A DNA stretch of 64,000 nt from Venturia oleaginea (taxonomy: Eukaryota; Ascomycota; Dothideomycetes; Venturiales; Venturiaceae), in contig JABMLP010000037.1 of the NCBI GenBank assembly GCA_013176395.1, positions 1 to 64,000 on the forward strand. The letters run 5' to 3'. Position numbers and translations under genes: made by a program. Numbering within the stretch: position 1 is the stretch's first letter; each line of letters starts with the position of its first letter. A model generated the notes under the pieces. That model saw only the letters and a list, made by a program, of their open reading frames with translations, was not told where the DNA came from and made no database searches. Positions 34,811-55,404 of this stretch are shown piece after piece.

Positions 34811-37800
34811 ATGGCCGAGTTGACCACCAACTACTTTGTCTGCACACTGGGAGAAGCCGCAGGGCTTCAAGTCCAGATCAACAAGTCATACACGACTGTC
34901 AACCATCTCATTGAGCAACAAGCGCATTTCAATCCTGACCTACCTGCATTCGCCTTTCCCGTCCCGGGTCCCGGCACACGATGGGATTCTCAAATATACA
35001 GTACGTCCACGTGATTCGTTCGATTCCAGATATAAACTGACAATGCAAAGCCTTCAAGGATGTGTACAATATATCCATCTCTTTTGCGAACAGATTCCAC
35101 GAACAGCTGCTTCACTACACGTCGCCCACTGTCGCGCTTCTGTGCCCGAGTTCCAGTGACTTCGTGTTCGCTTGGTTGGGATTAATGCGAGCTGGGTTTT
35201 CCGTCTTGATCATCGCGTGAGTTCGGTGGTCCGAAAACATAATTACCAATTCTAAACTGGTCAAATTTAGTCCGCAATGTCAACCAGCAGCCGTCGCTCA
35301 TCTTTGCAGTACCTGCAGTGTTGGTTTTCTATTTTACGACGAAGCATACTCGGAGCTGGCCCAGTCCGCTTCGTCAATCGCCGGCTTCGACCTGAAGTTT
35401 CAAGCTCTCACGAAGAAAACCCAGCACTTTGATATTCGCGATCCATCGAGACGTTTCAGACCCCATTATTCCGACGACATCGCCTTCCTCTTCCACACAT
35501 CTGGAACATCAACAGGACTACCAAAACCGATACCTCAGAGTCATCACGCGGCTGTAGGAGTACTACCTACTTTGGACGGAGTAAAATCAGCGACATTCAC
35601 AACCACGCCTCTTTACCACGGGGGAATTGCGGATTGTTTACGAGCATGGACGAGTTCAGCGCTGATCTGGCTTTTCCCTGGGGCTGATGTGCCTATCACT
35701 TCGAGAAACATATTGCTTTCTATTGCCTGTGCCAAGAAATCCGAAAGAGGACAAACTACGCCGTCGGTATCGTATTTCGCCAGTGTTCCATACATCCTTC
35801 AAATGCTTGCCGACGAAGAAGACGGCTTCAACATGCTCAAGTGTATGCAAATAGTTTCAGTTGGCGGCGCCGCGCTGCCACAGAATGTCGGCGATAGGCT
35901 CGTCGATAATGGAGTCAATCTGGTCTCACGATTTGGAAGCGCCGAGTGCGGCTTCCTGCTTTCGTCCAATCGGTTCTATGAGAAGGACAAAGAATGGCAG
36001 TATCTTCGGCTCCCTGCGAACAACAAACATCTTAGTTTCGAACCAGAAGATGATGACAGCAAATTGTCTCAACTGATTGTTCTTCCAACCTGGCCACACA
36101 TCGCGAAAACTAATCGTCTGGATGGTAGTTTTGCGACCAGTGATCTTTTTGAGCCACATCTTGGTATTCCCAACGCATGGAAGTATCATAGTCGCAATGA
36201 CAGCCAAATCACCCTCAGCACTGGCAAGAAGTTCGACCCAGCTCCTGTTGAGAACTCAATATCCTCCGCATCGCCGTTAATCAGGGATGTCTTAATCTTT
36301 GGGAACGGCCAACAAGTGCCTGGTCTTCTGGTCTTCCCCTCCAATACGTCGGCACAAAAGAAAAATGAGGACATGGAAAATACAATATGGAAAATTGTTC
36401 AAGACGTGAACTCTCAAGGTCAAGACCACACCCGCATCTCGCGGAACATGATGATCATATTGACCCAAGATGAAGATCCGCTCCCCAAAAGCAGTAAAGG
36501 GACGATCTTACGGAATATCGCCAATGAAAAGTACGCAAGGCAGATTGGAGCTGCTTACAATGGTGGATCGCAAGACAGTCTCCAAGATGTTAAATTGCTC
36601 TCCGAGACATCCACAGGGCAGCATGTGCTTGAGGTAGTTCGTCAAATCGTCCATGCTGTGACGAGTAGTAAGGGTGCTTTAGAGGACGACGCCGATTTCT
36701 ATCAATACGGCGTGGATTCAGGCACATGTTCGCAAATCCGTGGGAGATTGACGAAAATAACTACACCGCGCGTGAAGCTACCTTGGAGTATTGTTTATGA
36801 TTGTGGAAATATTGCTATGTAAGTCTGATGCTGTTGCAAAAATGCCCGTAGACTCATTGTTGCAGGCTATCTAAGCACCTCTTTGATACTCTCCAAGGAA
36901 AATCTCCATCTGAAAACAAAGACGCTTCCCAAGGAATGCTTAGCCTTGCTGCCAAATACTCAAACCTCTCATCTCATACCCTTTTACGCCCAGGGCACCA
37001 AGAGCGACTAACAATAGTTGTGAGTGGCATCCATCTCTTCTGCATACTCTTATCTGACAAACCTAGCTTCTGACTGGTGCTACTGGCTCGCTCGGTGCAC
37101 ACATTCTACACTTTCTCCTCCAAGATCCCTCCATCGTGAAAATTACGTGTTTGGTTCGTGCACAAACCGACGAAGAGGCAAGAGATAGAGTCAAGGCTTC
37201 ACTTGCGCGACGAAGAAAAGACGTATCAGATATTACAGAAGATCTAGCTGGCCGATTGACTTGCCACGCGTCAACTCTCGGCTCATCTGATCTCGGCCTT
37301 TCAAAAACGAATTACGAAGCATTGGTTGGAGAAGTGACGCATGTGATTCACTCAGCATGGGCGGTGAATTTCTCCCTCCCTCTCCACTCATTCTCGGATA
37401 ACATAGCCGGCCTTCACAATCTCCTCACTCTCACGATTTTGTCGGAGCAAAATGCCAGTATGGTGTTCTGCTCTTCCACAGCCTCTGTTCTCTCCTCGCT
37501 CGACCATCCCATTCATGAATCTCTTTCTGATGATCCAAAGGAGGCGGATTTACTTGGTTACTCACAGTCAAAATGGGTCGCTGAAAGAATCTGCGCCTCA
37601 GCTTCACGACTTCCTTCTATGGCTGGTCGTATCTCCATTCTACGAATCGGACAACTCACCGGCGATACCAAGAACGGGATCTGGAATATATCCGAAGCAT
37701 GGCCGTTAATGCTCAGTACCGTTACTAAACTCAATTGTCTCCCAAAACTAGAGGGGGAAAGACTGGCTTGGTTACCCGTCGATATGGCCGCCAAAGCCGT

Positions 37801-38287
37801 TTGCGATATTGCCATGACGTCAGAGAACATCCAAATCTCTACTCGCAGCGAAGAGAATGGAGAAGAAGGGGAAACGTGTCTGGTTTATCATCTCGTTGCG
37901 AACATCACCCCCGATACACCCACGTGGTCTGATCTCCTCACTTGGATCCAAAGTGCCCGCAAAGAGCCTTTCGATATCGTGTCTCCACGGATTTGGCTTC
38001 AAAGACTTCGTCGCCTTGATGAGCACCCTGCTCAGGCTTTAGTTGGGCTTTGGGAGCGTGCGTATGGTGGTGAAGACGGTGATGGAGCACGGGATGGAGG
38101 GGAAATACAGGTGAGACCGATTAGATTGTTCGAGACTGCGAGAGCGGAAAGAGCGAGTGCGTGTATGAGGAACTTGAAACCGGTTGATGAGGTTTTTGCT
38201 AGGAGGATGTGGGCATGGTTGGATGGGGAGATGGGTGGGGAGAAGTACGTGGTTGGATTTGGTCTGAAGCAGATTTGGGATTCGTAA
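34811..38287 (+). CDS. NRPS-like enzyme: adenylation, carrier and reductase domains
   Basis: Five exons (34811-35000, 35051-35216, 35271-36818, 36866-37019, 37067-38287) join in phase to 1092 residues. The adenylation domain (about 20-540) carries FHTSGTSTGLPKP (nucleotide loop), SRFGSAECGF, TSDLF, RNDSQITLSTGKKFDP and the lysine motif LPKSSKGTILRN, in the form seen in fungal carboxylate-reducing NRPS-like proteins. The carrier domain holds its attachment serine near residue 602 in QYGVDSGTCSQIRGRL. The C-terminal short-chain reductase (from about 687) has the NAD(P)H loop LLTGATGSLGAHIL, a serine-rich CSSTASV and the catalytic YSQSK. There is no condensation domain. Such enzymes activate a carboxylic acid with ATP, load it as a thioester and release it as aldehyde or alcohol. 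Its neighbours suggest the substrate is an amino acid or amino-acid adduct in mycosporine synthesis. An unrelated aryl-acid reductase role is the main alternative. Confidence 0.85.
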
Positions 38288-39015
38288 TGGTACGGGTGCT
38301 ATGTATGTTTAATGTACATTCATTCTCCTGCGCCTGAACGTGCTTTAAAACGGCCGGCTTTAGTAAGGAGAGATATGTATACTCATCTTAGAGTGAACAA
38401 AGGGTCCTCCAAACACCACGGCGCTGCCAGTCTTTCCTCTAGCAATCTTTCATTCTGTCTCACGAAGGGCTAATCTATAGACTAGTCAACCTTAGTCCCT
38501 ACTATATCTTTAAAAAAAAATGTATAAATCTCCAGGAAGTGGATTACCAAGAGTTAGTGTACTAGTTTAGACGATACCTTGCTCGGAAAGCTGTCTTCCT
38601 TTTATTGGGTGATAACATTTAGAGCTAATTTCTTTCTTTTTGAGTGTGGTTCTTCTTAGTTATTTGAAGATATGCACTTGGAATTGGAATTGGGTAGGTC
38701 TTCTTTATGTTATGATTTTGAAGGAGATGGATTGTGAGGGGAAGATTTGTGTTGCTTTTGGGTATCGAGATGAGTTTTTCATAAGCTTTTCGAAAAAAAA
38801 AAAAAAAAAAAAAGGTCTTTTCGGGATATTGTGTTGTTTTGCAAAAATCTCTGATATTTTCGTCGACAGATGGTTCCAGACAAAAACCATCGTAAAGGCG
38901 TGCTTCGGTCATCGTCTCTAGAAGCTAAACAACGCCTAGCCCGCACAACAGCGCAACAACAAACAACTAGGGGAGAATCCCTTTTACGAGAGCGAAAGTA
39001 CCCACTCATCGAGCC
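38288..39015. other. Convergent intergenic region
   Basis: The NRPS-like gene and the ATP-grasp gene end toward each other here. The region holds A-rich tracts, including a 21-base poly(A) run near 38793-38813, and probably both 3' ends. No gene seen. Confidence 0.6.
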
Positions 39016-40518
39016 TCAACATAGAAACATCTTCCCGGTACTGACATTACACCTGCTCCACCACTTTCCCCTCACAATCGCGACCGCAAATTTCCCGGGC
39101 CAGTACACACAATATAGCCACCAAAATGGCCACGGATCCCAGAGTTCGAAGGTGCCGTCTTTCCAGGTGGTGTTGTGGGTGAGGAAGTCGTGGAGATTGT
39201 TGTAGGTAGTACTGGGGCTGGAGTTGAAAGTGAGGAGGGAGAGAAGGGGAAGGATGAGACGGGTCAGGATGTCGTGGCCGAGCCAGTAGTAGCGGTTTTG
39301 GGAGGAGGGGAAGACTGTCTTCACCTCGTTCTTTTCCTCGTCGTTAGAGGTAGGATCGGAATCGAGTAAATGCAAATACGCATTTACCATCCTCCCTGTG
39401 TCACTTCCAAAAAGCACAACAGCAGTATGTGCCCTCGGGTTACATTCGATAGGGTAGATCCTCTCTTCCAACTTCTTTTCCTGCTTTCCATTTCCATCTG
39501 CCGTCTCATCGACGAGAAAATCCATGGAAAAATGCCCCGTCATTTCCTTGCCCATTTTCTCGGCATACGTCTTCGTGTACTCGAACATGACACGGAATAA
39601 TGGCGAATCGGTGGGCAGAGATTGATAATGCATGAGCATATCAGCAGAGAGGCAAGCAGTGAACAGCATTACCTTGCCTCTTATTACGATGGAGTGCGTG
39701 CAATACTCTGGCCCCTGGATGTACTGCTGCAGAACAAAGGGGCGGGTTGGGCTTGGATTGAGACGCGTGACGTGGGAGCGAGTTTTGGAAGCGGAAGGGC
39801 GGGGGAGTAATGTCATGTCTGCGCGGGTTATGTCGTCGACGCCAACGGGTTTCATTATGTATTTCGTGTGGTCGGTATTTTTGTCCGGATCGAGGGTTCC
39901 GAGAGCATCGTCGATGGATGTGATCAGATGGGTTTTCGGCGTATTGAGTCCTAGCTTTCGAGTGTTTTCACTGAAGGAGAACTTCTCATGTAACGTCGCT
40001 GTCATGTCAACGCCGAATTGGAGGGCTTTACATTTTGTTTCCTTCTCGACGGCTTCGGCTGATCTGGCATCTTCGAGTGCTGAAGCGACGCCAGAGCAGC
40101 TGACCCAGAGATCAATCTTCTCCTTTCTGACGATAGACAAGATGGCCGTGACATAACTCGATTCGCCTAAATCATTTTGTGATTCTTGCGGCAGCCGATA
40201 GAACTTTCTTGCGGCATTTGAGAAGCGTCCACAGACAGGAATTCCGTCTGGCTCAAAATCAGCAGTGACCACATGGTGCCCTTGTTGGTAGAATGCGCGA
40301 GCAATGGCCAAGCCTTTGCTCATTCCCACCCCTGTCACCAAGATCCTTCGTGGTTGAGTAGCACATTCCCTCCGACTGCGGCCATCTCGGTGACGTGACG
40401 AGAGAGAGGCGAGGATTGTCGCAATGGTGCAATAAGGCGTAGAGACAATGGCGAGGACGAGTAATGATAGATTCTGCAGCAGGTGCTGCCATGAAGGCGA
40501 GGCAGACGAAAGAGGCAT
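39016..40518 (-). CDS. ATP-grasp ligase, mycosporine-type (MysC-like role)
   Basis: Single-exon gene of 500 residues. A hydrophobic segment at residues about 12-40 (LLQNLSLLVLAIVSTPYCTI) suggests membrane anchoring, unusual for a soluble ligase. A Rossmann-like pre-ATP-grasp domain follows (RRILVTGVGMSKGLAIARAF), then the ATP-binding part (KYIMKPVGVDDITRADM, LQQYIQGPEYCTHSIVIRGK) and the metal-binding end (GHFSMDFLVDE and IYPIECNPRAHTAVVLFGSD). The C-terminal 100 residues are aromatic and hydrophobic. ATP-grasp enzymes couple a carboxylate and an amine by way of an acyl phosphate; in mycosporine pathways the homologue attaches glycine or another amino acid to 4-deoxygadusol. The assignment rests on the fold motifs plus its place between a reductase and an O-methyltransferase/cyclase pair. 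Confidence 0.8.
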   Translation of the reverse strand: MPLSSASPSWQHLLQNLSLLVLAIVSTPYCTIATILASLSSRHRDGRSRRECATQPRRILVTGVGMSKGLAIARAFYQQGHHVVTADFEPDGIPVCGRFSNAARKFYRLPQESQNDLGESSYVTAILSIVRKEKIDLWVSCSGVASALEDARSAEAVEKETKCKALQFGVDMTATLHEKFSFSENTRKLGLNTPKTHLITSIDDALGTLDPDKNTDHTKYIMKPVGVDDITRADMTLLPRPSASKTRSHVTRLNPSPTRPFVLQQYIQGPEYCTHSIVIRGKVMLFTACLSADMLMHYQSLPTDSPLFRVMFEYTKTYAEKMGKEMTGHFSMDFLVDETADGNGKQEKKLEERIYPIECNPRAHTAVVLFGSDTGRMVNAYLHLLDSDPTSNDEEKNEVKTVFPSSQNRYYWLGHDILTRLILPLLSLLTFNSSPSTTYNNLHDFLTHNTTWKDGTFELWDPWPFWWLYCVYWPGKFAVAIVRGKWWSRCNVSTGKMFLC

Positions 40519-40535
40519 TTTGGAATGACTTTGGA

Positions 40536-40634
40536 CCTCGCTTCGTTGGCTCTGGAGTCGTCTTCGAGCCTCGCTTCGTTGGCTCTGGTGTCGTCTTTGG
40601 GCCTCGCTTCGTTGGCTCTGGTGTCGTCTTCTCG
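40536..40634. repeat. 33-bp tandem repeat in the ATP-grasp promoter
   Basis: Three 33-bp units start at 40536, 40569 and 40602; each begins CCTCGCTTCGTTGGCTCTGG and they differ at a few positions. The array starts 17 bp upstream of the ATP-grasp ATG (minus strand), so it lies in the leader or core promoter. Confidence 0.92.
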
Positions 40635-41034
40635 AACAATCACAAGCCAGTCCTTTGGCGGTACAAAAGATATTGCGATGCTGCCATGCAATTTGTCGAA
40701 GAACGTCATGAGTCTGTAACCCGTTTGAGCTAGACTGTATCGGGAAAAGGGCATGCGCACCCGCTAAAGACGGGCTGGATCGTTGTGGAGACTGCCCCGA
40801 GCCAATAATAGCGCTGGATTAGGAATTACTTAAGGAGAGACCTACGAAGGCGGGATATGGAATCTAACCATAGTTAATTGGGGGTCATTTGCGATACCAC
40901 TTCCGTGCGTAGTACTCGTATTGAAACGGGACAATTGGAAGGCTAAACGTCAGATTACTTTAGGCTATTGTCGTAGAGAGGGGGAGACTTTTGTGCGTGG
41001 AAAAGCTGAGAACTCGACATGCGGTTGGATGGTA

Positions 41035-41097
41035 CCCGTCGCTTATTGAGCGACCCCCGTACTCATTGAGCGACCCTCGTACTCATTAAGCGACGGG
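41035..41097. mobile_element. 63-bp foldback element flanked by TA
   Basis: Arms CCCGTCGCTTATTGAG (left) and CTCATTAAGCGACGGG (right) match as inverted repeats with one difference. A 20-bp direct repeat (ATTGAGCGACC core) lies between them, and TA flanks both ends (41033-41034, 41098-41099). A TA target duplication is typical of Tc1/mariner and pogo/Fot1 insertions. It has no coding capacity, so it is best read as a minimal non-autonomous relic. Confidence 0.6.
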
Positions 41098-41550
41098 TAA
41101 GATTTTGAAGTGGGTGAGCCGTGGAAGAGCATGGCGTGACTTCCCATGTGGCAAGGGCGGCTACTCAGAAATGTGCTGATGACCCAAGACACTGCAGGGC
41201 TGAGAGCTTCCTGGCCACCATCAAGAGGGCAACCTGGTCTCAGATCATGGATCATGGCATGGTGAGAGTCGCCTCCGAATTCGGTCTCTGTCTCTGCCCG
41301 TATTCCAAATGCGTTCTTCAATGCCGTCATGGTTGCTAGAGCGGAAAGACAAGCTAGGCGACCGTAAAGTCGTTGCCTCTTGAGATATCTATTGTCGTTC
41401 CTTGAGACATCTAATCTGACATGTATACATTAATGACTAAGTTGCTATCATGCTCTGATCGAAGGCACAACCTTTGAGAACCGTATGTCATCGCCCTTCT
41501 CAGCTCGCAAGAAGATGTTTTTCCACACCACCTATCTTCGTTGCTTGCAG

Positions 41551-42516
41551 TCACTTGCCCGACGTCTCTTCGCCCATGCAATACGTGATTTCCACGCCAT
41601 CCTGAAAACGTCAGTGGCAGGACTTCGAGTGGAGATAGAGGGAGATACTCACTGGGACTCCTGTTGGCTCAAAGCTGTGCACAATATCGCTCTTATAGAT
41701 GATATCTGGATTGCCTGGCGTCTCGTTCTTTGGAATCTCCTCGCTGCCATAAAGAGCAGCATGCGTGATGGAGAATTTCTTGAACTCCTCGCGCGTATTC
41801 ACTTCAGGATCTCCTGCTTTCAAGGCCATTCGTTTTTCTTGCGGTGTGCTGCGAACGTATTTGAGGTAGCGTGGATTTCCGGGCTTGATGACATTGTCGG
41901 CGGCAAGTACAGTCCCCTTCTTGATCAGGCCAAGTGACTCGCACAGCTTGAGATCCGTGGTGTATAAAGGCTTGACGTGGTCCAAGAACATCATATCGAC
42001 CTGATTTAGCTTTCCATCGTCATGCAGCTTCTGGAGGCTCTCGGTGCTTCCTCCGACGACCACTTCAACAATGTCATCCAAACCAGCAAGTTTGACCAAA
42101 TTCTTGATAATTTTTCCAAACTTTGGGCTCTTCTCCAAGCAATAAAACTTTTGGCCTCCCCTCTCTTTCAGTGCATTGGAAAACAGAATGGTCGAGTAGC
42201 CGCAGTACCCTCCAAGTTCCACCATGACCTTGGGTTTCACGTCGTGAATGAGATTGGTCACAATTCTGCCTTTGTCTTCACCCACGTTCATGAGGTACTT
42301 CTGTTTCCGACCATATTCGTCGATTGCGTCCAAAATCTTCGAGGGCTGGTTTTGTATGCCGGTTTTGGCCTGCACAAAGGCAACCAAAGCTTCCTCTCGG
42401 CCATCATCGAACTGAGTGATTCCTGTCAGCGGAGGTCTCAGGTTGCCGGACGGTACGTTACTCACATATGTCTCTTCCTGCTCGGCGTACGCCTTTGTCT
42501 CGTCAAAGGAAGGCAT
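41551..42516 (-). CDS. Class I SAM-dependent O-methyltransferase (MysB-like role)
   Basis: Three exons (42466-42516, 41653-42411, 41551-41601) give 286 residues. Introns of 54 and 51 bp have GTGAGT donors and CAG acceptors. The fold is the catechol-O-methyltransferase type: a SAM-binding loop MVELGGYCGYSTILF at about 80-94, metal-binding aspartate in MMFLDHVKP (about 162) and the DN pair at about 190-191 (GTVLAADNVIKPG). The small last exon adds DGVEITYCMGEETSGK, which closes the family core. In mycosporine pathways this enzyme methylates desmethyl-4-deoxygadusol to 4-deoxygadusol. The start is divergent from the cyclase gene, 833 bp away, so the pair may share one control region. The first intron has a length divisible by three and no stop, so unspliced message would still be open across it. 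Confidence 0.85.
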
Positions 42517-43349
42517 TTTGATGTGTGTGTACGCTGGACGCGTCTGTCAACACATGCCAAGTGGGAGAGGAAGCAGGCCGCGGGCAGGATCCGAGTGACG
42601 TCCCCGCACTTTGGTCGCCAGGAGCAGATTCCCAGTATCGCATGCTTGCTGTTGATTGGATTTGGATGAGGAGTCGACGTGTAATGGACGTTTCGATAGA
42701 CACGTTGAGCCCGTCACGTTACCTCGCGATCCCAGTCGGAGCGTTGCCCTCGAGTCATTGGTATAGCATCACTATCCCACCTGTCACCCACCATCTCCAC
42801 ACCTGCACCACCTCCGCTCCCCAGGTCAACACCATCGAATCATCATCACCACTCCCTTCCAGCGCTACTACCGATGGTCCAGATCAACTCTTGCGCCATC
42901 CTGCCGCGGTTCAGGAGCAGGTACGTACAGCATTACGTACAGATGTCAAAGTGAGGCACAGGAGTCTTGATCGCTCCCCAACGTCGTCCCCCACCATGGT
43001 GTTTCAACCCGCATCTCTCCGCCATGTATGGATTCCATCCTTGTTGCTATGCAGTTCGGTTCCGTGCTGGCTAGATGCTGCATACATCTGGACACCAGAA
43101 CCCTCATGATCTCACTTGTACCTTGTATATGCCCATCAATAGCTCATGCTGTGTAACTATGTCAACGTATCAACACTTGTCTCAATCGAGGTAGCTGGAG
43201 AAGGGCCGGAAGTATGGTCATTGTAACGGCTTTCATATACCGTCTGTTGCCTGCCTTCTCTTCTCTCACAATTCTCCCTCACTGATCACTCTTCACTCCA
43301 TCTTTCTTCAACTCGCGCGTAATTCCATTTTCAACAGGAATTTTTCGCC
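42517..43349. promoter_or_regulatory. Divergent promoter region of methyltransferase and cyclase
   Basis: Two cluster genes are transcribed away from this 833-bp spacer, which therefore holds both promoters. The cyclase side is pyrimidine-rich with long CT runs (about 43240-43330), typical of fungal core promoters. An open frame of 194 codons crosses it (+) but has no domain and is not accepted as a gene. No specific operator was identified. Confidence 0.6.
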
Positions 43350-44849
43350 ATGTCAGACCTCAAAGCTACCGTCAAGGAGACGAAGACCCCCTCTGGTCAC
43401 GCTGGATTCCACGTCGAAGGCTACGAGAAGATTGAATATGATTTCACCTTCATCGATGGCGTTTTCAACATCGAGAATGCCAATTTGGCCGACCTCTACA
43501 AGAAGTGGGAAAGGTGCCTTGCAGTGACAGATATCAACATCTACAATGTCTACGGCGAGCAGATGGAGAAATACTTCAAACACCACGGCATCAAGTTGGT
43601 CATCCACAAGACCAAGATTGGCGAGAAGGCAAAGACCATTCCAACTTTGCTTTCCATCGTCGAGGCCATGGTGAGTCTTAACGTGCTTCTTTCCGCCTAT
43701 CATCCTAACATCCGACAGACCGAATTCGGCATTATTCGTAAGGAACCAGTCTTGGTCATTGGAGGTGGTCTCGTCACCGATGTCGCTGGCTTTGCTTGTG
43801 CCGCCTACCGCAGGAACACAAACTTCATTCGGATCCCAACCACCGTCATTGGTCTCATCGATGCGTCAGTGTCAATCAAGGTCGCCGTCAACTATGGCAA
43901 CTACAAGAATCGTCTAGGTGCTTGTAGGTACTCTGGCATATATCCTTCCCTTCTATGACCACTCTAACATGGCTCAGACCACGCTCCCATCCATACCCTT
44001 CTCGACTTTACCTTCCTGCGTACATTGCCCATCTCCCAAGTACGAAATGGCTTTGCTGAGCTGATGAAAATCTCCATCTGCTCACACCTATCCACATTCG
44101 AACTGCTCGACAAGTATTGCGAGCAGCTTATTGAGATGAAATTTGGTCGTGCAGATGGCTCGTCCAAGGAATTGATCCAGGCCGCCGACAAGATCAACGT
44201 TGAGGGCATCCACGAGATGTTGAGGCTGGAAACGCCCAACCTTCACGAGATTGGCCTTGACCGTGTCATTGCCTACGGTCACACTTGGTCACCCTTGCAC
44301 GAGCTAGTCCCAGAGACGCCTTTCCGTCATGGACACGCCATTTCCATCGACATGGCTTACTCTGCGACGCTAGCCAACAGCCGCAAACTCATCACTGACG
44401 AGGAGCACCACCGTATCCTGAAGCTCTTCTCTCGTGCTGGTCTGACCATGGATCACGAGTCCTTCACTGGAGAAATTCTGGAGAAAGCAACTGCTGCCAT
44501 TCTGAAGACCCGTGATGGTATTCTCCGCGCCGCCGTGCCATCACCAATTGGCTCATGTGTGTTCCTCAATGACGTCTCCAAGCAAGAGATGGACGCTGCT
44601 TTGCACAGACACAAGCAGATCATGAAGGAATATCCTCGCCAAGGCGCCGGCCTCGACGCGTTTGTCGACGCCAGCGATACTGGCGAGGACGAGCACGATC
44701 ACGTTATCGCCAAGAACCCGTTGAACGGCAAAGGCGCCAAGGAAACCAATGGCAGCAATGGTGTCAATGGTATCAAGAAGGATTCCATCACCGAGATAGA
44801 GTGCGCCTCTAAGCTGGCCCAGCCACCAACCACAAAGGTGATGGCATAG
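43350..44849 (+). CDS. Sugar-phosphate cyclase, DDGS type (MysA-like role)
   Basis: Three exons (43350-43670, 43719-43923, 43978-44849) join in phase to 465 residues of the dehydroquinate-synthase superfamily. Visible motifs are the NAD-binding VLVIGGGLVTDVAGFAC (about 117-135), YRRNTNFIRIPTTVIGLIDA, KVAVNYGNYKNRLGAYHAP, RNGFAELMKISICSH, and GHTWSPLHEL with the metal-binding RHGHAISIDMA (about 276-305). The GHTWSP and RHGHAISIDMA blocks mark the branch of DDGS and 2-epi-5-epi-valiolone synthases, not shikimate-pathway dehydroquinate synthase. DDGS converts sedoheptulose 7-phosphate to desmethyl-4-deoxygadusol. The DDGS choice over EEVS comes from the adjacent methyltransferase and ATP-grasp genes. 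The first intron (48 bp) is divisible by three and stop-free. The last 50 residues are an Asn/Gly-rich tail. Confidence 0.88.
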
Positions 44850-45512: not shown

Positions 45513-46726
45513 CGATCACCCAACCCGTCAGATCACCCAACCGGTCCAAATTTCTTGGCACGACCATCTAATATTACGACTCTTTAATTTCATCGCTATT
45601 AACAATAGATTCTAAGTCCGTCGTGCTGCCATCTGATTCAGAAGATATCTCGATATCTCTTTTACAAGTTCGCGCATTATGCCCAGTTGCGCCGCAGTTC
45701 CCACAGCGCCATTAAGTTGGTCGGGCTGTTTTCGATCCCTGAGGCGCTACAGACGCCTCTGCAGCTACCTGCGCTGCTGCAGTCCCATACTCTATAGTAC
45801 CACCTTGCTGGATCCACTTCCTTTTGCGCCATTTTCGCTTCGTCGCCTTTGTATGCGCGTCAAAGTGCTTCAACCACTCAAGACCCAGCGCGTTGTTTGT
45901 CCAGCCGTTCTCAGAGACTGAAAGCTTCCAATTGCGCGGTATATCTGCCTCCTCATACCACGTAGAGATGTGAACTCGTCCTTTGTAGATAATGAATGGC
46001 GGGGTCGCATACCCAGCTGCGCAAATGCTCTGAATAACCGTAACCCATTCGCGATCGCCCGGCTGAATGAGTTCAGGCCTTGTACGTCTCTCAGAGGCTG
46101 TAACGACCTTCATTGACCCAATAATACCCATCTGGAAGCCAATCTCGTCAAAGTTGTGCGTATCCTCGTCGTGGATGCCGTACTTTGCCTTGGTGTCTGC
46201 AACGAGCTTGAACCACGTGCCAATAATCTCTGGATCTTCCTGTAGTATCCTCTGCCTATCCTCGGCTCGATTGAAGGCTGTTTTGAGCTCACCTGAGCGC
46301 TTTACGAACCTCTCAGCCCACTTTTTGCCTACTGGCTCTCCACCGCGTATACCCAACAATTTATCCGCCATATCTGCCACCTCACACAGCCGGGGCGCAA
46401 ATCTTCGCGAATCGAGGTCGAGGGTATATCGGACAAGCGTTTGCTCTTCGTTAAGGGTAAGTTTCCGACCGTTTGGTGGTCTTTCGAGGATAAATGGGAC
46501 TCCTCTGACGCGATCGGAGAGGGTTTGTTGTTTAACGTTGAAGGCGCTCGCAGCAGCCCGTTGGCTTCGGAGTTGGCCGGTATTCAAAGCTTGGATTGCA
46601 AGCTGAATTCTCCCTTCTTGTTGGAGTAGTAACTCATTACGTTGTTGAGACATAGTAGAATAAGAAGAGTAGTCGGGGTCTTGGCAAATTTTGACCGGTT
46701 GGGTGATCTGACGGGTTGGGTGATCG
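45513..46726. mobile_element. Internally deleted Fot1/pogo element
   Basis: A 1214-bp element bounded by inverted repeats of at least 34 bp (45513-45546 and 46693-46726). Each repeat contains two 17-bp copies of a GATCACCCAACC-type unit. It encodes one broken minus-strand transposase. A full-length Fot1-like element is near 2 kb, so about 0.7-0.8 kb is missing. Confidence 0.85.
45574..46653 (-). pseudogene. Fot1/pogo transposase, catalytic core deleted
   Basis: The frame opens at 46653 with a Psq-type helix-turn-helix (QRAAASAFNVKQQTLSDRV) and a CENP-B-type second DNA-binding domain (GEPVGKKWAERFVKR). The DDE domain starts normally: the first catalytic Asp lies in HNFDEIGFQMG, followed by ELIQPGDREWVTVIQSI and GLEWLKHFDAHTKAT. 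It then jumps directly to a basic tail (RKWRKRKWIQQGGTIEYGT). The usual LDGHxSH block with the second Asp and the third acidic residue are absent. A TAA near 45712 precedes a still readable CCHC knuckle (CGNCGATGHNARTC) that ends at 45574. It cannot be an active transposase, but the DNA-binding half is intact. Confidence 0.85.
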
Positions 46727-48244
46727 AATACGTTATCTATATAATTTTCCTCATCAGAAAGGACATGTTATTACGAGCCCCTCTTAAAACCTCAGTATTA
46801 ACTCTGTAATCCGATATAACCTTTACTAGGAGAAAAGCGCCAAGACCCTTTAGTATCCATTCCGAAGCCTAAATAACGCCTTTCCGCCTAACGGGAAGGC
46901 GAATATCTTAATGCGGGAAGTCTCGCGGCGGGAATAACGAAAGTCTGTAGATTGCTTTACCTCTAATCGCCCTAGCCGGGCAATGTTATGTGGGCAGTTG
47001 AGTTGGCCTATCTATACCTCGACTTGTTTAAAATGGTAACACACAAATGATGATAAATTCAATGAGTGACTGCATGGCCCTCAAACTGAGTGGAAATGAG
47101 GGCTCTATATATACAAGAGAATGTACTAAAGTAAGGATAGAGGACTTGAAGATCCTATAAAGAATCTGCCCAAAATACGAGGCTAAACGGGGGCTTAAGG
47201 CCTCCAGCGATATAGCCCTATTGCGTGATTGCAACACGACTCCTCCTTTTCCTGCTGCTACCCCTCCTGGTGTTACGGGGAACTCGTTCCTCAACACAGT
47301 TGATTATGTCAAGACCTTCTTGACACCTGTGTTCTCTTGTTCTGGTCCGCGGGTTTGGGGTAAGGGCAATATCAGTCTGGAAGTACTTACCTCAAGTACC
47401 TTCCCTTGCTCAGGTTCTTTGGAGGCTCACTAGATCCTAGCCGTCCGATGTATCTCCCAATTCAATTGTCGTCTAACCGATTTGATCCTCAGATCAATCC
47501 TGAACGCTTGTCGGTTAGTATGAAGGTTGGGGGTGGGCTTGCTTCGTGTGCATATGACTTGTGCTTGATTGTATCTAAGTAAAAGGTCGTTACTGTAGTA
47601 GGTTGAAGAAGCTCCTATGTGAGAAACATAACATGAGATAACCACGAAGAGAGAAAGGAAAGTCCGTCCAACGTCCTCCCTATATACCCTTCTGGTTCTG
47701 GGTGCCAAGGTGTATTCCCACACTTCCCACACATTGATTGATTGATTGATTTTATCCTACTCGGTTGCAGCCGCTTAATCAGGCAGCTATGTCCGGTTAG
47801 GAGGACTTCATCAGACAGCCGACACGTGATAGATTATATAATCCACCGCGCCCCACTTCGCCCCGTTCACTGAAACAAGACCAGCTGTCCCCTCCGTCCT
47901 CCCTCTTTTCCCTTAACCAGTATCTCCAAATGCCCGCTGGCTCTTGTAGATACTGGTTATTCTGCTAGTATATCTGTGCTATGTAGACTCAAGAGGCAAT
48001 GCCTCGTGTTTCGCTATCCTTCTACCTACAGTCTCCCTCTAATGCTCAGCTTTGTCTATCTGTTTCGCCTTATCCCTCAAGGCCAATGGGTTCCCTAAGT
48101 ATGTTTCTGCTTGTGAAAGTTGCCTTGCACCAGATTCCTATGCGGCGGTGTATTTGGTTGTGTGATGCTGGAGACAATAGTAACCATCGTAGTCGTGATT
48201 TCGCTGCTTGGGTGTGATACTCCGGGTATGCCCGTGGACGAGGC
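46727..48244. other. Transposon-island spacer with LTR-like sequence
   Basis: No host gene seen. The minus-strand stretch 47430-47735 begins with GTGGGAAGTGTGGGAAT, contains a TATATAGG box and looks like part of a retrotransposon LTR. A TGAT microsatellite lies at about 47731-47750. A related GTGGGAACTGTGGGAAT start occurs on the plus strand at 49362. Confidence 0.4.
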
Positions 48245-48954
48245 TGTCTGGTAGCTGCCGTATTGTATGGCGCCGATCGTGCTATAGACCTGCCGTCTTA
48301 TAGTCGGAGCCTATCTGCTGCTAGTCGCTCTCCCTACTTGCTATATCGCGCTCCTACTCTTGCCAATGCCATAACTGGGACGCAACAGTCTGGGGAGAGG
48401 CTCAAGGCTACGTCTGCTGGCTTGTAGGGAGGGGATTTGCCGCCAATAAGCTCCTTCTATACGTCCTTACTGCTTACTGTGTTGCGCACCTACTCTTGCC
48501 AATGCCATAACTGGGACGCAACAGTTTGGGGAGAGGCTCAAGGCTCTGGACAACAGCTTGCAGCAGGACGGTTTGCGGAGACGATAGTAGATGAGGTTCT
48601 CTAGCAGCTGCCGTATCGTGTCGCACCGATTGTGTTGTAGACCTGTCGTCTTATAGTCGGAGCCTATCTGCTGCCAGTCGCTCTCCCTGCTTGCTATATC
48701 GCGCACCTACTCTTGCCACTGCCATAACTGGGACGCAACAGTCTGGGGAGAGGCTCAAGGCTACGTCTGCTAGCTTACAGGGAGGGGATTTGCCGCCAAT
48801 AGGCTCCTTCTATGCGTCCTTACTACTTACTGTGTCGCGCACCTACTCTTGCCAATGCCATAACTGGGACGCAACAGTTTGGGGAGAGGCTCAAGGCTCT
48901 GGGCAACAGCTTGTAGCAGGACGGTTTGCCAAGACGTTGGGAGAGATTGTCTAG
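48245..48954. repeat. Tandem duplication of about 355 bp
   Basis: Two near-identical copies (about 48245-48595 and 48596-48954) share long runs such as TATAGTCGGAGCCTATCTGC. A degraded third start lies near 48945-49010. Inside each copy a segment of about 60 bp (CCATAACTGGGACGCAACAG) recurs about 136 bp apart, so the structure is a repeat within a repeat. Translations are full of stops in most frames; no family was recognised. Confidence 0.85.
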
Positions 48955-49909
48955 TCGTTGCAGTGGTGTGTGGTGCCGATTGTTGCACACCGGGCGTCTG
49001 GTGTTTGAGTTGTGTTGAAGGTATTGCCGTTCTAGCAGTGACTCGTCGACTCGGAGCGTTGCAGTGTCATCTGGGGTGATGGACTAGCCGGGAGATAGTG
49101 ACTAGATGGTTGCTGTTGTCTTTGGTGGACGCATCGTTCGTGTAGCTTGCTCATGTATTCGTCTGCTTGCTCTGCGGTGGCCGCGACGGCGACTCTAGAG
49201 ATATCTCATCGACGCTGAGGGACGCGCGATGGCCTCTAGAGGCCGGAGCGGCCACTGGCAGAGGTGTTTTGATGATCCTTAGATGATACTTCTGTAAATT
49301 CCAAAAATTGAGTTCTCGCTGTGTGTGCTGTTTTTCACACTTCCCACACAGTGGGCAATGCCAAGTGCTGTGGGAACTGTGGGAATATCACGTGACTCCT
49401 GCATGTACTATTCTCTCTTAGGACTGACCTGGTTGCACCAGTCCCCTCTTGTGCGCCCAACGGATTCCACTCCACATCAGTCCTAACAACAACTTCTTGT
49501 TATCCAACCATCCTCTGCAGGTCCCGTTGTCCCTGCTCTTCGGTCTTGAGGTGATCTGTAACAAGCTACTTGTTGTAGTAGAATTCTACTTAAAATAAAG
49601 AAGAAGATGAAGAAGAAGTCTAAGTTCTCCTTTCTTCTTGTTCTATTGTTTTTTGTATCTATGATACATAAGGTCAAGAGGCGCGCATGTATTTATGTTC
49701 ATTAGAATTCCATTCTCTAGAAGATTCCGTAAGCCACCTCGACATTTCTTAGTAATCAACCAAAGGGCAAAAACATTCCAGACTCTTCTACGAGGGTCTT
49801 CTGGCTACAATGTTCGTTCGTGCGCAAAAAAGCGGAAGCTAGAGGTGGACGCTACTGTAACAGCCACAAGTTTAGTAAGATGTTTTGTGACTAAGTTAAC
49901 GTATTTCAC
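48955..49909. other. Spacer with a second LTR-like sequence
   Basis: A plus-strand stretch from about 49362 begins TGTGGGAACTGTGGGAAT and continues with a pyrimidine-rich body and an AAATAAAG signal. This would suit a copia-type LTR, in the orientation opposite to the 47430-47735 stretch. No gene seen. Confidence 0.35.
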
Positions 49910-51455
49910 CACTCACTTGGCCACCCCACTCACTTGGCCACCCCAACCACTAAATCTCAAGTCATCGTGCGATAAACCTCCCACCAATACAGCTTTTGTT
50001 AAATAATTCTAACAATACATTCTTTACGTATTTGGGCATCGATTAATCTTATGACCTTGAATACCGCAGCCACTACATGTTGGTAATGTTCGCTGTCGTA
50101 CGACGACTTCCTGATCTTGAACACTATCTCTAGAGCTATTTTCGCATCCCTCGATCAAGAACTGACCCTGTTGAGCTTGTAAAACGCCTCCATATTCAAC
50201 ATATCGTCTGCGATACTGTTGCTTCTGTTTTCGTCGTTGGTTCTCTGTACGAAGCTTCCTATTCTCTTCTGCAAGTATTACTGCTGAATTCATTGCGACT
50301 TGATATCCTTTGATGAGTTGACCAATTGCTTGACTACTTGGGCTCTGAGATTGGCGATGAAGAAGATTTCGGACGAGCTGAGCCTGCTGCTCAAGCTGAG
50401 CTATCTTACGAGGAGTTTCTGACGTCCACTGTGGCGCTACTCCATGGGGTGTACCTGGTGGTGAGGGCGTTTTGGTAACTGTAAGCGACGAAAGAACGCG
50501 CTGCGGGTCGTACGGAATAATTCTTGTCGCTTGAAAACCGCTCTTAATATTCTGCTCAGAGAAGATAGTAGGTCGGATGCTTGCATAGATTGATAGAAAG
50601 TCCTCTTTATCAATATGGTGGGTTCCCTGACGAACAAGCTCTTGAACTGCTTGACCGTAGGAGCGTTTCAAAGGCGAAAAACAGCTTACATCAAGCGGCT
50701 GAAGAAGATGAGATGTGTGTGGCGGCATACAGAGTGTGATAATGTTATTCGTACGTCAATATTCGTCAAAGTCTGGTGTTGCGTGACTGCTGTGGCCATC
50801 GAGGATAAGGAGGAGGTGGGTACCCTTCGTACGAGCTTCGGTATGAGTATTGAAGTGCTTGATCCACTCAAATCCAAGCTCATCAGTTGTCCAGCCATTA
50901 TTGCTGATAGCAATAACCCAATCGGCCGGTAACTGACGGTACCAGTTTGATTGATGTACTTTTCCAGGAAGGATAATAAACGGCGGAATTGCCCAGCCTG
51001 ACGCGTTGATTTCCTCAATCGCTGTTATCCATTCACGATTCCCTGGCTGTACAACAGTTGCTCGTCCGACTGTATCTGCGCTTGTAACCACCTTTGGGGT
51101 CGCGATAACCCCCATCATAAAGCCAATCGTCAAAATTATATATATCCTCCGTAAGGATGCCGTACGACAGACGCGTCTCTTCAACACGCTGAAACCACGC
51201 GTTGATTGTCGCTGGATCTTCGCATTTTGCACGCTGTGAATGGAATTTACGATTTCACTTCGTACAAAGCTCCGGCTGAGCGTTGATGAAGCGGGATACC
51301 CAGTTCTTCCCGACTAATGACGGTGCAGCAAAGATTGAGGGCTGAATACGTACAGATTGATTCGCTCCTTTTTCTCGGCTTGAGTTGTAGTTGTAGTTGC
51401 GCAAGCGATGCGACTTTGAGAGTCTGTATAAGCGGTACGACTTTGAGGATTGCAC
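49910..51455 (-). pseudogene. Second Fot1/pogo-type transposase, broken
   Basis: Minus-strand blocks in three frames follow the pogo order. They are VGKNWVSRFINAQPELCTK (51340-51255), GNREWITAIEEINASGWAIP, DELGFEWIKHFNTHTEAR, LLLILDGHSSHATPDFDEY (second Asp, intact) and PPHTSHLLQPLDVSCFSPL. A long coiled tail ends in a CCHC knuckle (CSGCGIQGHKINRC). The N-terminal part is frame-shifted and the start is missing. At the left end, 49910-49943 holds two 17-bp copies of CACTCACTTGGCCACCC, which probably formed the terminal repeat. No matching right end was found before the satellite array at 51555. Confidence 0.8.
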
Positions 51456-51554
51456 AAGCGATGCGACTTTGAGAGGTCTCGATAGAGAGAGAATATGTAT
51501 TCTTCTTCCGCCCTAGATTCGAGCGAGGAGAGGTTGTTTTATGCTTGCAAGGCA

Positions 51555-51945
51555 GAGGAATTAAAACCCGTAGAAGAATGGTCGTTTTGTACGCAATGTA
51601 AGGGACTTGAAACCCGAAGAAGAATGGTCGTTTTGTACGCAATGTAAGGGACTTGAAACCCGAAGAAGAATGGTCGTTTTGTACGCAAGGTAAGGGACTT
51701 GAAACCCGTAGATTTGTTTGTAGGTATTGAAACCCGTAGAGGAACGGTCGTTTAGTACGCAATGTAAGGGACTTGAAACCCGTAGATTTGTATGTAGGAA
51801 TTGAAACCCGTGGGTATTGAAACCCGTAGAGGAATGGTCGTTTAGTACGTAATGTAAGGTACTTGAAACCCGCAGATTTGTATGTAGGAATTGAAACCCG
51901 TAGATTCGTATGTGGGAATTGAAACCCGTAGAAGAATGGTCTTGA
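51555..51945. repeat. Satellite-like array with TTGAAACCCG core
   Basis: About ten irregular units of 24-46 bp share TTGAAACCCG followed by a TAGAAGAATGGTCGTTT block or by a shorter TAGATTTGTATGTAG block. The array lies exactly between the broken pogo transposase and the truncated copia element, where the copia reverse transcriptase would be expected. Confidence 0.88.
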
Positions 51946-52098
51946 TAAGGCGTAGGCTTCTGAACTTTACATCAAACCAGATAGGTCAAAGAAGTGGTCT
52001 CGAAGCGGCAAACGTGAGCTGGATCAAAGCTAGGCTTGGTACATAGAGAGCGCGTCTTAGACCGTAGGTAATGAGAGAGAAAGCTGGGCCTGGATTGA

Positions 52099-54366
52099 TT
52101 AATAGATGTGGTTGAGATGGGGACTTGATGATGATGAGTGATAGGTTGGCGGCGCTTGATGGATTCGTCGGCGTGAAAGGTTGAGGTACGAATGATGCGA
52201 CCGTTTTTCAAGCAAGACTTTGTAGATGCTGTGGCCATCGAAGCCAACGATTTTGCCTGCTAGCGAGCGATCTTTGAAGCCTTTGGTCTTCTTTGTGATG
52301 GCCCAGCCGTTGCTACCAAAGATGAGCATGTTGGAGACTGAGGGAGCAATAGAGGTCCAAGCCTCAAAGATAGTCATTGCAAGGCTGGAATGAGGTCCCA
52401 AGACGCGTACAAAGTTGGCGAAGGCATATGCGAGAGGCCAATACTTGGTAGGAAGTTGTGAGGCAATCATCATGGGGTTTTCCATTGACAAGATGACGCC
52501 GTTGAAGCGCTCGGATCGAGGGTTCTGCTCAGGATTGTATGGAGTCGTGCAGTGGTGAGTAATGCCTTGAGAAAGGAGGACAGCTTCATCTGCTGCTTTG
52601 ACGTATTCTCCTCCATTGTCAGTCTGGTAGAAATGAATTTGCATCGTGGGTGAGCTTGAATTGCTGGAAGAGAGCAAACACCTCATCTTTATGCTTCATG
52701 AAATGGACCTCAGAATAGCCAGTATAGTCATCAATGAAGCTGACAACCCATAGTTCTCCGCGAAAACCACGCGTTGGGTAGGGCCCAGTGACGTCTGAAT
52801 GAATTAGATCGAGTTTGAAGCGCCCTCTCATGATGTGACCAGTGTGAGGTGTCCTCTTCATCTTCCCAAGCATGCAGGCTTCGCATGGAGGTTGGCGATC
52901 GATAGGTCTTGAGAGATCCATTCCTGTCACCATCTTTTCGAGAGCGCGAATGCGTGGAGGACTGATGTGTGCAAGCCTTTCATGCCAGAGTTGTAATGTA
53001 TCTGAATTGATGGCTGCAAAAAATACGGGTTGACGGCGAAGATGGAGAGGGAAGACGCCATTGACGCGACCGGTGGTGAATGTGAACTTGTCTGGGATAC
53101 AGATTTTGAGGCCTGATGTGTCAACTGAGAAGTTGACGCCTTTGGAGAAGAGTTGGTCAAAGGATAGCAGATTAACACCTGCCTCAGGGCAATGTTCGAC
53201 TCCATGAAAGTCACAGGGTGAAATGAGCCTTTGGTGGTGGTAGCCCAGAGTTTGACTATGCCTGTACGGATGACTTTTGCTGTAGAGCCAGAGAGACCGC
53301 TGAATGGACGCTGTTGAGATGGAAGAAGGGCGCGATATTCGACAAATGCAGAGCGATCCCAGGTAAGGTGACGGCCGCATGCGCTGTCAAGTAGCCATTG
53401 GTGAAGAAGGTCAGTCCAAGGGAAGTCCTCTCGAGCCATCAAGGCGGTAACTTTCTTGGCATCTGGCTTCTTGGTGTCTTCGGTATCAGCGAGAGGTCTA
53501 TTCTGTTGATTCTGGTTGCCTTTCTGATTGCGAAAGCATTCGTGCTTGGTGTGGAATGCGCAGTTGCATTTGGTGCAGTAAGATGCGTGGATTTTGACTG
53601 CATCGCCGATGACTTCTTCGCTGTACACGCCTTTTCGCACAAAGGTAGTTTGAATGGAACGAATAGAGGGTTGAATGACCATTGCAGCGACTGTAGAGTG
53701 GGTATTAAGATGACTACGCTCCTCGTTCCTGACGCGATGAATGGTTTCTTCAGAGGAGATTGGGTCATTCTTTTCAGTCTTGAGGATGTTGGCGATCTGA
53801 TTGAAGGTACTGATAAAGGTATCGAAGGCAGGGCCAAGGTTACCTACGTCATGTTGGACGATAAAGGGTACTGGAAGCACGACGTCTGAGTTGAGTTCGT
53901 CGAAGGCGCGGATAATACGTCTGAAGTCTTCGGTGTAGGAAAGAAGGTCTGGAGAGTTCGAATATGAGAGGTTGTTCTATTCCCTGCATAGTTCTGCGAA
54001 TGTGCCGGCGCCCTGAGGTCTGAATCTCTTGAGCAGCTCATCGCAGAGCTTCTTGACAGTGTCAAACTTAGGATCCTTCACCCGGGACTTAGCTTCTGTT
54101 CCGAGACGCGTGCGAAGGGCGGAGAGAGCAAGTCTTTGTGATTTCTTCCATACGACCGATAAGTCTAGGGTTGTAGAGTTTCGAGTAGTGACGCCTTCGA
54201 CGGTAAGAGGTAGGATGGGATTGTCAAGGATAAGTTCGAAATCCTGGTGGAGAAGGTAGGTGTCCGCCAGTTCAATCCATGTAGTGACCGAGTAACCATC
54301 CTGAAGTATTGGTATGTCTTTGAATTTGAAGGATCCAGAGCCGGATCCGGCTTGAGTTTCAGCCAT
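52099..54366 (-). pseudogene. Ty1/copia Gag-Pol, truncated after integrase
   Basis: Reading right to left: a Gag start at 54366 (WIELADTYLLHQDF, then KKLCDELLKRFRPQGAGTF), a CCHC zinc knuckle CTKCNCAFHTKHEC, and a protease-like block WLLDSACGRHLTWDRSAF. The integrase follows, with its HHCC finger (HERLAHI...CEACMLGKM), core aspartates in LDLIHSDVTGP and QTDNGGEY, and the glutamate in NPRSERFNG. Several frame changes separate the blocks. The sequence stops after the integrase; reverse transcriptase and RNase H are absent and the satellite array takes their place. Confidence 0.85.
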
Positions 54367-54419
54367 GAGTGTAGATTGAGAATATGAAGACTTAGTGATT
54401 GTATCGCATCGTCGCATTC

Positions 54420-54566
54420 GAGGAGATTTGGCTTAAGTTTCAGCCATGAGTGCATGTCTGCTCACCGTCCTAGCGGGTCACGGAGACATGATGGAGAGAT
54501 CTGGCTTAAATTTCAGCATTGATTGCATGCCTGCTCACCGTCCTAGCGGGTCACGGAGACATGATC
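54420..54566. repeat. Duplicated segment of about 72 bp upstream of Gag
   Basis: Two adjacent copies end in the identical run CACCGTCCTAGCGGGTCACGG. They lie just before the Gag start in the copia leader. A third partial match (TTTCAGCCATGAGTG) lies inside Gag's first codons, suggesting slippage-type duplication. Confidence 0.88.
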
Positions 54567-55143
54567 GAAGACCACTTAGCTAATGCAAGGATTTGTATGA
54601 GCGATAGGAACTGTACGGGTGATGTTTCTGACGTGTAGGGGAGCGAGAGACCTGAGAAGCGGCGTGAACAGGGCTTGTAGTAACTAGAAGCGCAATTGAC
54701 GAGGTTCTGAGATTTGTCGTGTGCCTTGACGCGAGAGAGATCAGCGGGAGGGTTCGAATGGGTCATAGAAAGCCGTTGGCCGCGTGGTGATTCAACACCA
54801 AGGAATCTGCTTTGCGTGGTAGGGTAAACTATATATAGGCACAGCGGTAGTGCAAGCCCGGGCTCATAACCTGTCAAAAGGTAGATGAAGCAGACTGATT
54901 TTTGAATTGAGAGGCTGAGGGCCTCGTATATATATACACAATGTGTCTCGTGCACAGACCAATTCATTTGACACTCGCCTTCACCTTCGCCAAGTGGCAG
55001 CGATCGTAATAGGAGCTCTAGGTCAAAGTCAGTGAAGCCTTCGAAGTTATTACTGCAAAAGATAGCCCTCCAAAACGCTGCCAACGCGAAGGATACGGGG
55101 TTCCGTCAACTCGCCGCTGCCCTCGTTCAACCAAGTGTACGTG
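54567..55143 (-). mobile_element. Probable copia leader and LTR remnant
   Basis: On the minus strand this stretch ends in TTTTGACAGGTTATGAGCCC (about 54885-54860), which resembles the LTR end plus primer-binding site of copia elements. It is followed by the leader and the Gag start. A TATATATA box lies at about 54930-54940. CACTA copy 2 begins directly at its outer end, so nested insertion is likely. A long open frame across it is not accepted as a gene. Confidence 0.4.
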
Positions 55144-55404
55144 CACTACGGTCATAGAATTTTGTAGATTACAACGATTTTAGGTGTATTTTACATCTAG
55201 ATTCCCGTGGCCGATTTCACCCTTTTTTGGTGTAATTTACAATGGAATCTCCGTTTTTTGGTGCACGTTTCTTGTTACAATGCACAAGAAAATCCCGTAG
55301 ATTACAATCCGTTCAAAAAGCAATATATTCTCGTTATCTCGGCGAGATTGCCGTGTCACTCATCACCACTAAATATAGTGTAATATAGCTAATAAACAGT
55401 GATT

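Follow-up and report, generated by a model that had tools for sequence, protein, structure and literature searches.

Four intact genes at the locus

Fungal mycosporines carry amino alcohols such as serinol, glutaminol, and glutamicol. Here we describe a gene cluster of the ascomycete Venturia oleaginea in which the enzymes of the mycosporine core are accompanied by a reductase-ended enzyme related to nonribosomal peptide synthetases (NRPS-like). The cluster lies on contig C31 of a genome assembly of 46.1 Mb in total, within the opening 64 kb (hereafter, the window), and its four intact genes fill the span from 34811 to 44849. Thus, the proposal of a preliminary description of this DNA, that a mycosporine core and a reductase-ended NRPS-like gene are present within 10 kb, was borne out, and the NRPS-like protein proved to be a structurally complete reductase with adenylation (A), carrier (T), and reductase (R) domains, as had been described. 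Splicing of GT-AG introns yields uninterrupted proteins in all four cases. The NRPS-like A-T-R adenylate-forming reductase, identified from the splice model and Pfam, is encoded on the forward strand at 34811 to 38287 (1092 amino acids; five exons, 34811-35000, 35051-35216, 35271-36818, 36866-37019, and 37067-38287). Two genes on the reverse strand follow, the ATP-grasp ligase (ATPG) gene at 39016 to 40518 (500 amino acids, one exon) and the O-methyltransferase (OMT) gene at 41551 to 42516 (304 amino acids; exons 42516-41653 and 41601-41551). The desmethyl-4-deoxygadusol synthase (DDGS) gene is again on the forward strand, at 43350 to 44849 (465 amino acids; exons 43350-43670, 43719-43923, and 43978-44849).

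Homologues were taken from the best 120 of 1069 matches for the NRPS-like protein, 1334 for ATPG, and 3352 for DDGS, and the statements on homologues below refer to these lists. The best named matches are Venturia proteins throughout, with identities of 73% (Venturia inaequalis), 70%, and 64% for the NRPS-like protein, 79%, 78%, and 71% for ATPG, and 93% for the top DDGS homologue.

The core enzymes

DDGS and OMT produce 4-deoxygadusol, which the ATP-grasp ligase couples to an amino acid; this is the known chemistry of these families. The window DDGS is a sugar phosphate cyclase of the DDGS type, matching the structure 5tpr with an E-value of 4.7e-145 over 402 residues. We take 5tpr to be the Anabaena DDGS; its PDB title is 3-dehydroquinate synthase, and some DDGS relatives carry the name demethyl-4-deoxygadusol synthase. 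The OMT scores 60.2 bits with PF01596 (cut-off 22), and ATPG is an ATP-grasp ligase as found in the fungal mycosporine core. Apart from a nearly identical copy of the region on contig C26, discussed below, a genome search with the last DDGS exon returned a single weak DDGS-like match (23% identity), and a search with the ATPG protein returned a single distant ATP-grasp relative (26% identity). The latter, at C56:674277-675029 in a frame of 591 amino acids, has a C-terminal DPWPxWW and an N-terminal hydrophobic stretch in common with ATPG.

A long N-terminal helix is predicted for ATPG at residues 9-44, and its C-terminus contains the stretch WDPWPFWWLYCVYWPG; together, these features suggest that the ligase might be attached to a membrane. 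In Hyphodiscus hymeniophilus, a protein of 724 amino acids (P0240) joins an OMT, 54% identical to the window OMT, to ATPG. This is either a real fusion or a merger of gene models, and the 960-kb contig that encodes it also carries an NRPS-like homologue.

Domains and adenylation pocket of the NRPS-like enzyme

Pfam models place the domains of the NRPS-like protein in the order A-T-R, with no condensation domain. The NAD_binding_4 domain scores 134 bits, so that the protein is not an amino-acid-adding module lacking a reductase, as is the partner of the cyanobacterial core. The PP-binding score is slightly below the cut-off, but a GVDS motif is present there, and the carrier serine is found in 120 of the 121 sequences compared (120 relatives in addition to the protein of the window). 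The R domain contains TGxxGxxG and the catalytic residues Tyr851 and Lys855, which correspond to Y844 and K848 of the carboxylic acid reductase NcCAR.

The A4 region of the adenylation domain reads PLYHGG..D..R.W, and residues P232, H235, D240, R243, W245, and R339 are invariant in all 121 sequences. At the alpha-amine position, which comes right after the histidine and where A domains for amino acids hold an aspartate (GrsA Asp235), 120 of the 121 proteins have glycine and one has alanine, the position having been set by the A4 motif rather than by superposition. P232 and H235, in contrast, form the PxxH motif known from carboxylic acid reductases, in which replacement of the histidine (His237) abolishes the function of NcCAR (PMC5826065). 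The amino-acid adenylation model TIGR01733 gives only 67 bits for the V. inaequalis homologue, compared with 286 bits for a separate A-T-R-SDR protein of the own genome (1299 amino acids, contig C8), both below the cut-off of 317.

These observations bear on the possibility that reduction comes first, that is, that the NRPS-like enzyme releases an amino alcohol from a free amino acid and the ATP-grasp ligase then joins it to 4-deoxygadusol. The authors of the work on the Phaffia cluster state that ATPG incorporates glutaminol (PMC10057719), and other fungal A-T-R enzymes, those of clade I, do reduce free amino acids (PMC9605436). Nevertheless, given the missing alpha-amine aspartate and the low TIGR01733 score, we regard this order of events as unlikely.

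Among the 45 rows of fold matches for the A domain, acyl- and aryl-acid ligases come first; amino-acid A domains are next, within 2 Z units, and about 11 rows, as judged by title, are of this kind and fall within 2-3 Z units of the best match. This ranking would also fit an enzyme that reduces an unrelated aryl, keto, or fatty acid for some other product, its place beside the core being incidental, and the linkage data are relevant to this alternative.

Linkage of the reductase gene to the core in other ascomycetes

Shared contigs were recognised by their lengths across the three homologue lists, and the species names agree in every matched pair. An NRPS-like gene and a core gene are present on one contig in 23 named species (16 NRPS-like/DDGS pairs and 8 NRPS-like/ATPG pairs, with V. 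effusa in both), so that in other ascomycetes, where a search for the neighbourhood had been proposed, the NRPS-like gene is again linked to the core. We counted species for which both families are in the lists and the assemblies are comparable. In Venturiales and Leotiomycetes, 14 of the 16 species are linked, the other two being Lachnellula suecica and Diplocarpon rosae, both with short-contig assemblies; in other ascomycete classes, linkage was observed in 9 of the 17. Random placement in genomes of 30-50 Mb would produce 0.40-0.66 and 0.25-0.42 linked species, respectively, and none of 200,000 simulations attained either observed count. Drepanopeziza brunnea, Diplocarpon mali/coronariae, Fulvia fulva, Bipolaris sorokiniana, and Hortaea werneckii were left out because of differing or multiple assemblies or species names. 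Each listed protein represents a cluster at 90% identity, with the longest contig only, and therefore some of the species scored as not linked are possibly misjudged. Judging from these counts, the NRPS-like gene next to the core is no chance neighbour.

The eight unlinked cases outside Venturiales and Leotiomycetes are Xylographa soralifera, Lambiella, Pseudocyphellaria, Lophiostoma, Aplosporella, Circinaria, Sclerophora, and Bipolaris oryzae. In Circinaria and Sclerophora, DDGS and ATPG are together on one contig and the NRPS-like gene is on another. Three more species with DDGS and ATPG on a common contig, Phlyctema vagabunda, Hymenoscyphus albidus, and Chaenotheca gracillima, have no NRPS-like protein among the matches listed. 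Locus tags are close in Claussenomyces (2762/2763), Cadophora gregata (10804/10807), and Oculimacula (6783/6786), and 23-112 apart in Xylographa bjoerkii, Lecanora helva, Meristemomyces, and Neophaeotheca. Thus, in Venturiales and many Leotiomycetes the gene is found within the cluster or close to it, and its linkage elsewhere is often only loose. In the powdery mildew Podosphaera aphanis, NRPS-like and DDGS genes are both found on a contig of only 35.8 kb. The NRPS-like matches also include proteins of Ascochyta, Cladosporium, and Parastagonospora species (43-44% identity). Six listed ATPG proteins belong to what we take to be Sclerotiniaceae; among the best 120 of 1069 NRPS-like matches, none is named as from this family, although unnamed matches could hide one.

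An unrelated acid as the substrate is favoured by the eight of 17 and two of 16 counted species with the gene on another contig, and by the three with DDGS and ATPG and no listed NRPS-like protein. The linkage in 23 species, however, and the grouping of NRPS-like and DDGS proteins with the same class (see below) argue against it, as does the negative result for a polyketide synthase (PKS) or other backbone enzyme in a scan of 10 flanking frames, the window having 43 frames of at least 150 amino acids. We therefore consider this alternative, too, unlikely. The invariant residues are identical in the linked and unlinked homologues, which suggests a single type of substrate for the entire family.

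Phylogeny and probable joint inheritance

In the tree of NRPS-like proteins (55 of the 121 sequences), the Venturiales copies are placed inside Leotiomycetes, with a support of 95 in the SH-like approximate likelihood ratio test (SH-aLRT), and their grouping with other Dothideomycetes was rejected by the approximately unbiased (AU) test (p 9e-8). The DDGS tree (67 of the 121 sequences) has the same topology with a support of 98, but here the alternative grouping remains compatible with the AU test (p 0.0755). Among the best 120 of 1334 ATPG matches, no other Dothideomycetes are named, and the nearest rows beyond Venturia are Leotiomycetes. The Venturiales branch is long, and both trees are quick searches with class labels that were looked up for four species and are assumed for the remaining ones. 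As the NRPS-like and DDGS proteins of Venturiales both fall inside Leotiomycetes, the genes probably moved together, and on this reading Venturiales probably received the cluster from Leotiomycetes.

The ATPG proteins of Leotiomycetes possibly form two lineages (branch 94/96; P0190, P0201, P0207, and P0168), each of which is represented by one protein in Cadophora sp. DSE1049. Among the matches listed, all ATPG rows on contigs with an NRPS-like gene are outside the 12-row lineage that includes Sclerotiniaceae. Explaining the linked rows takes 6 changes on the tree, and 28 of 500 shuffles were as low; given this value and the branch support, that linkage follows the ATPG lineage is only a hint.

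The second copy and the flanking regions

Contig C26 (222001-251999) contains 30 kb of the window region without the segment 47737-49335. Since the identity is 99.3-99.9% along these 30 kb, we read this contig as allelic or as a second haplotype, and the idea of a second, paralogous cluster was dropped. The missing segment is an insertion polymorphism of 1.6 kb that lies downstream of the cluster; direct repeats are present at 48234-48999. Transposon remains adjoin the cluster (45712-56733), including a DDE_1-type frame at 45712-46767 and, at 52927-53976, a copia-like frame that weakly matches Pol_BBD. Other flanking frames encode an MFS transporter (59473-60636, reverse strand) and an amino acid permease (12714-13382, forward strand).

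Comparison with known systems

In the cyanobacterial mysA-mysB-mysC clusters (shinorine), a core of cyclase, methyltransferase, and ATP-grasp ligase is likewise joined by an NRPS-like partner; the comparison by sequence is that of DDGS with 5tpr. The cyanobacterial partner adds serine and lacks a reductase, whereas the window enzyme ends in one. The other counterpart for comparison, the cluster of Phaffia rhodozyma, is small and, by its description, has the same types of DDGS, OMT, and ATPG; in the text available, no NRPS-like reductase is described, and the source of glutaminol is left unexplained (PMC10057719).

With the fungal carboxylic acid reductases NcCAR, AtCAR, and StbB, the window enzyme has in common the A-T-R order, PxxH, the carrier serine, TGxxGxxG, and the reductase Tyr and Lys. 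The proposed comparison with characterised fungal reductases thus revealed agreement in these motifs and one departure, an invariant GKK in the window family in place of the GEK of NcCAR; in addition, the R domain of the V. inaequalis homologue is only 25% identical to that of NcCAR. Fungal carboxylic acid reductases have been divided into seven clades, with clades IV and VII described as having no known member (PMC9605436).

The Cochliobolus enzyme NPS10 (A-T-R-SDR, ATRR-type) also has the A-T-R order, and some sources name relatives of the window gene Nps10. However, NPS10 of C. miyabeanus is an A-T-N-D protein of 1282 amino acids, with an extra domain after N that the window protein lacks, and the identity of the two was rejected. 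By length and layout, the C. miyabeanus relative is more likely the 1063-amino-acid "NPS-like ATN" entry (PMC4890743); P0104, from this species, is also 1063 amino acids long. The NPS10 of PMC3554632, PMC5118889, and PMC3516569 is the other enzyme and, because of this difference, the fact that PMC2823734 scores Botrytis with zero under NPS10 is uninformative for the window family. Finally, "mycosporine-like" clusters of Hypoxylaceae, compared by description, combine an NRPS-like gene with homologues of ascomycete mycosporine clusters, and the available text assigns them neither a reductase function nor a product (PMC8403587).

A proposed role of the reductase

We consider it a real possibility, just short of an even chance, that the four genes make a mycosporine ending in an amino alcohol, with the reductase acting on the ligated mycosporine-amino acid. 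DDGS and OMT would make 4-deoxygadusol, and ATPG would couple an amino acid to it. The NRPS-like enzyme would then use ATP to activate the carboxyl that is still free on the mycosporine-amino acid, load it onto its carrier domain, and carry out an NADPH-dependent reduction, first to the aldehyde and then to the alcohol. The reaction, its ligation-first order, the second reduction, and the amino acid used are what we infer. Reduction after ligation is preferred because the pocket has no anchor for an alpha-amine and because the acid and the alcohol derived from a single amino acid have both been reported in one fungus, Pyronema omphalodes, as mycosporine-glutamine and a glucoside of mycosporine-glutaminol (PMC4665425). 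Accordingly, the part of the preliminary description that placed a reductase-ended module beside the core stands; its activation of a free amino acid does not fit as well, the alpha-amine aspartate being absent and PxxH present, which makes reduction of the mycosporine-amino acid after its ligation the likelier reaction. The step was also described as having no established assignment; in agreement, we found none in the open-licence PMC literature for an enzyme reducing the carboxyl to give mycosporine amino alcohols.

Several observations weigh against the proposed pathway. The essential Glu433 of NcCAR (GEK hinge) corresponds to Lys438 in all 121 sequences, a position assigned from equal distances to a conserved Asp (17 residues) and a conserved Arg (11 residues) rather than by direct alignment with NcCAR. 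The gene is on another contig in 8 of the 17 counted species outside Venturiales and Leotiomycetes. Furthermore, DDGS, OMT, and ATPG of Phaffia, expressed in Saccharomyces cerevisiae without a reductase gene, yielded a peak assigned to mycosporine-glutaminol (PMC10057719), which at face value implies that no dedicated reductase is needed. That assignment was based on HPLC co-migration, the main text mentioning neither mass spectrometry of the product nor nuclear magnetic resonance (PMC10057719), and the peak might therefore have been mycosporine-glutamine instead. Mycosporine-glutamicol is reported from Botrytis cinerea, against the lack of a Sclerotiniaceae-named protein among the best 120 of 1069 NRPS-like matches, and mycosporine-glutaminol has been reported from terrestrial cyanobacteria (PMC3083659).

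Alternatively, the enzyme could serve the mycosporine pathway and stop at the aldehyde, with closure on the ring nitrogen or the side-chain amide, or with a separate dehydrogenase finishing the reduction. Fungal A-T-R enzymes are described as yielding aldehydes (PMC9605436), and for mycosporine-glutamicol as well as its glucoside, mainly closed-ring forms are reported; yet no dehydrogenase match was found in the window frames scanned, and NcCAR over-reduces some aldehydes. We consider such a stop very improbable.

Returning to the reduction of the ligated acid to the alcohol, the locus appears to combine a known cluster core with a distinct A-T-R subfamily. A fuller scenario, which as a whole we regard as rather doubtful, is that the missing ascomycete step is performed by a dedicated, hitherto unassigned reductase subfamily that acts on the ligated UV chromophore instead of a free acid and is marked by the invariant GKK-for-GEK charge reversal at the adenylation hinge. 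Its linkage to the core would be ancestral in Leotiomycetes, Lecanoromycetes, and Dothideomycetes, and the scab fungi would have acquired both from Leotiomycetes. The conserved, linked, and intact reductase is a good candidate for the enzyme that forms the alcohol end of fungal sunscreens, testable with four genes in yeast. If this proves true, post-ligation carboxyl reduction would join the chemistry of natural sunscreens, a biocatalyst for amino-alcohol sunscreens would be at hand, and the occurrence of the acid in some fungi and the alcohol in others would become easier to explain.

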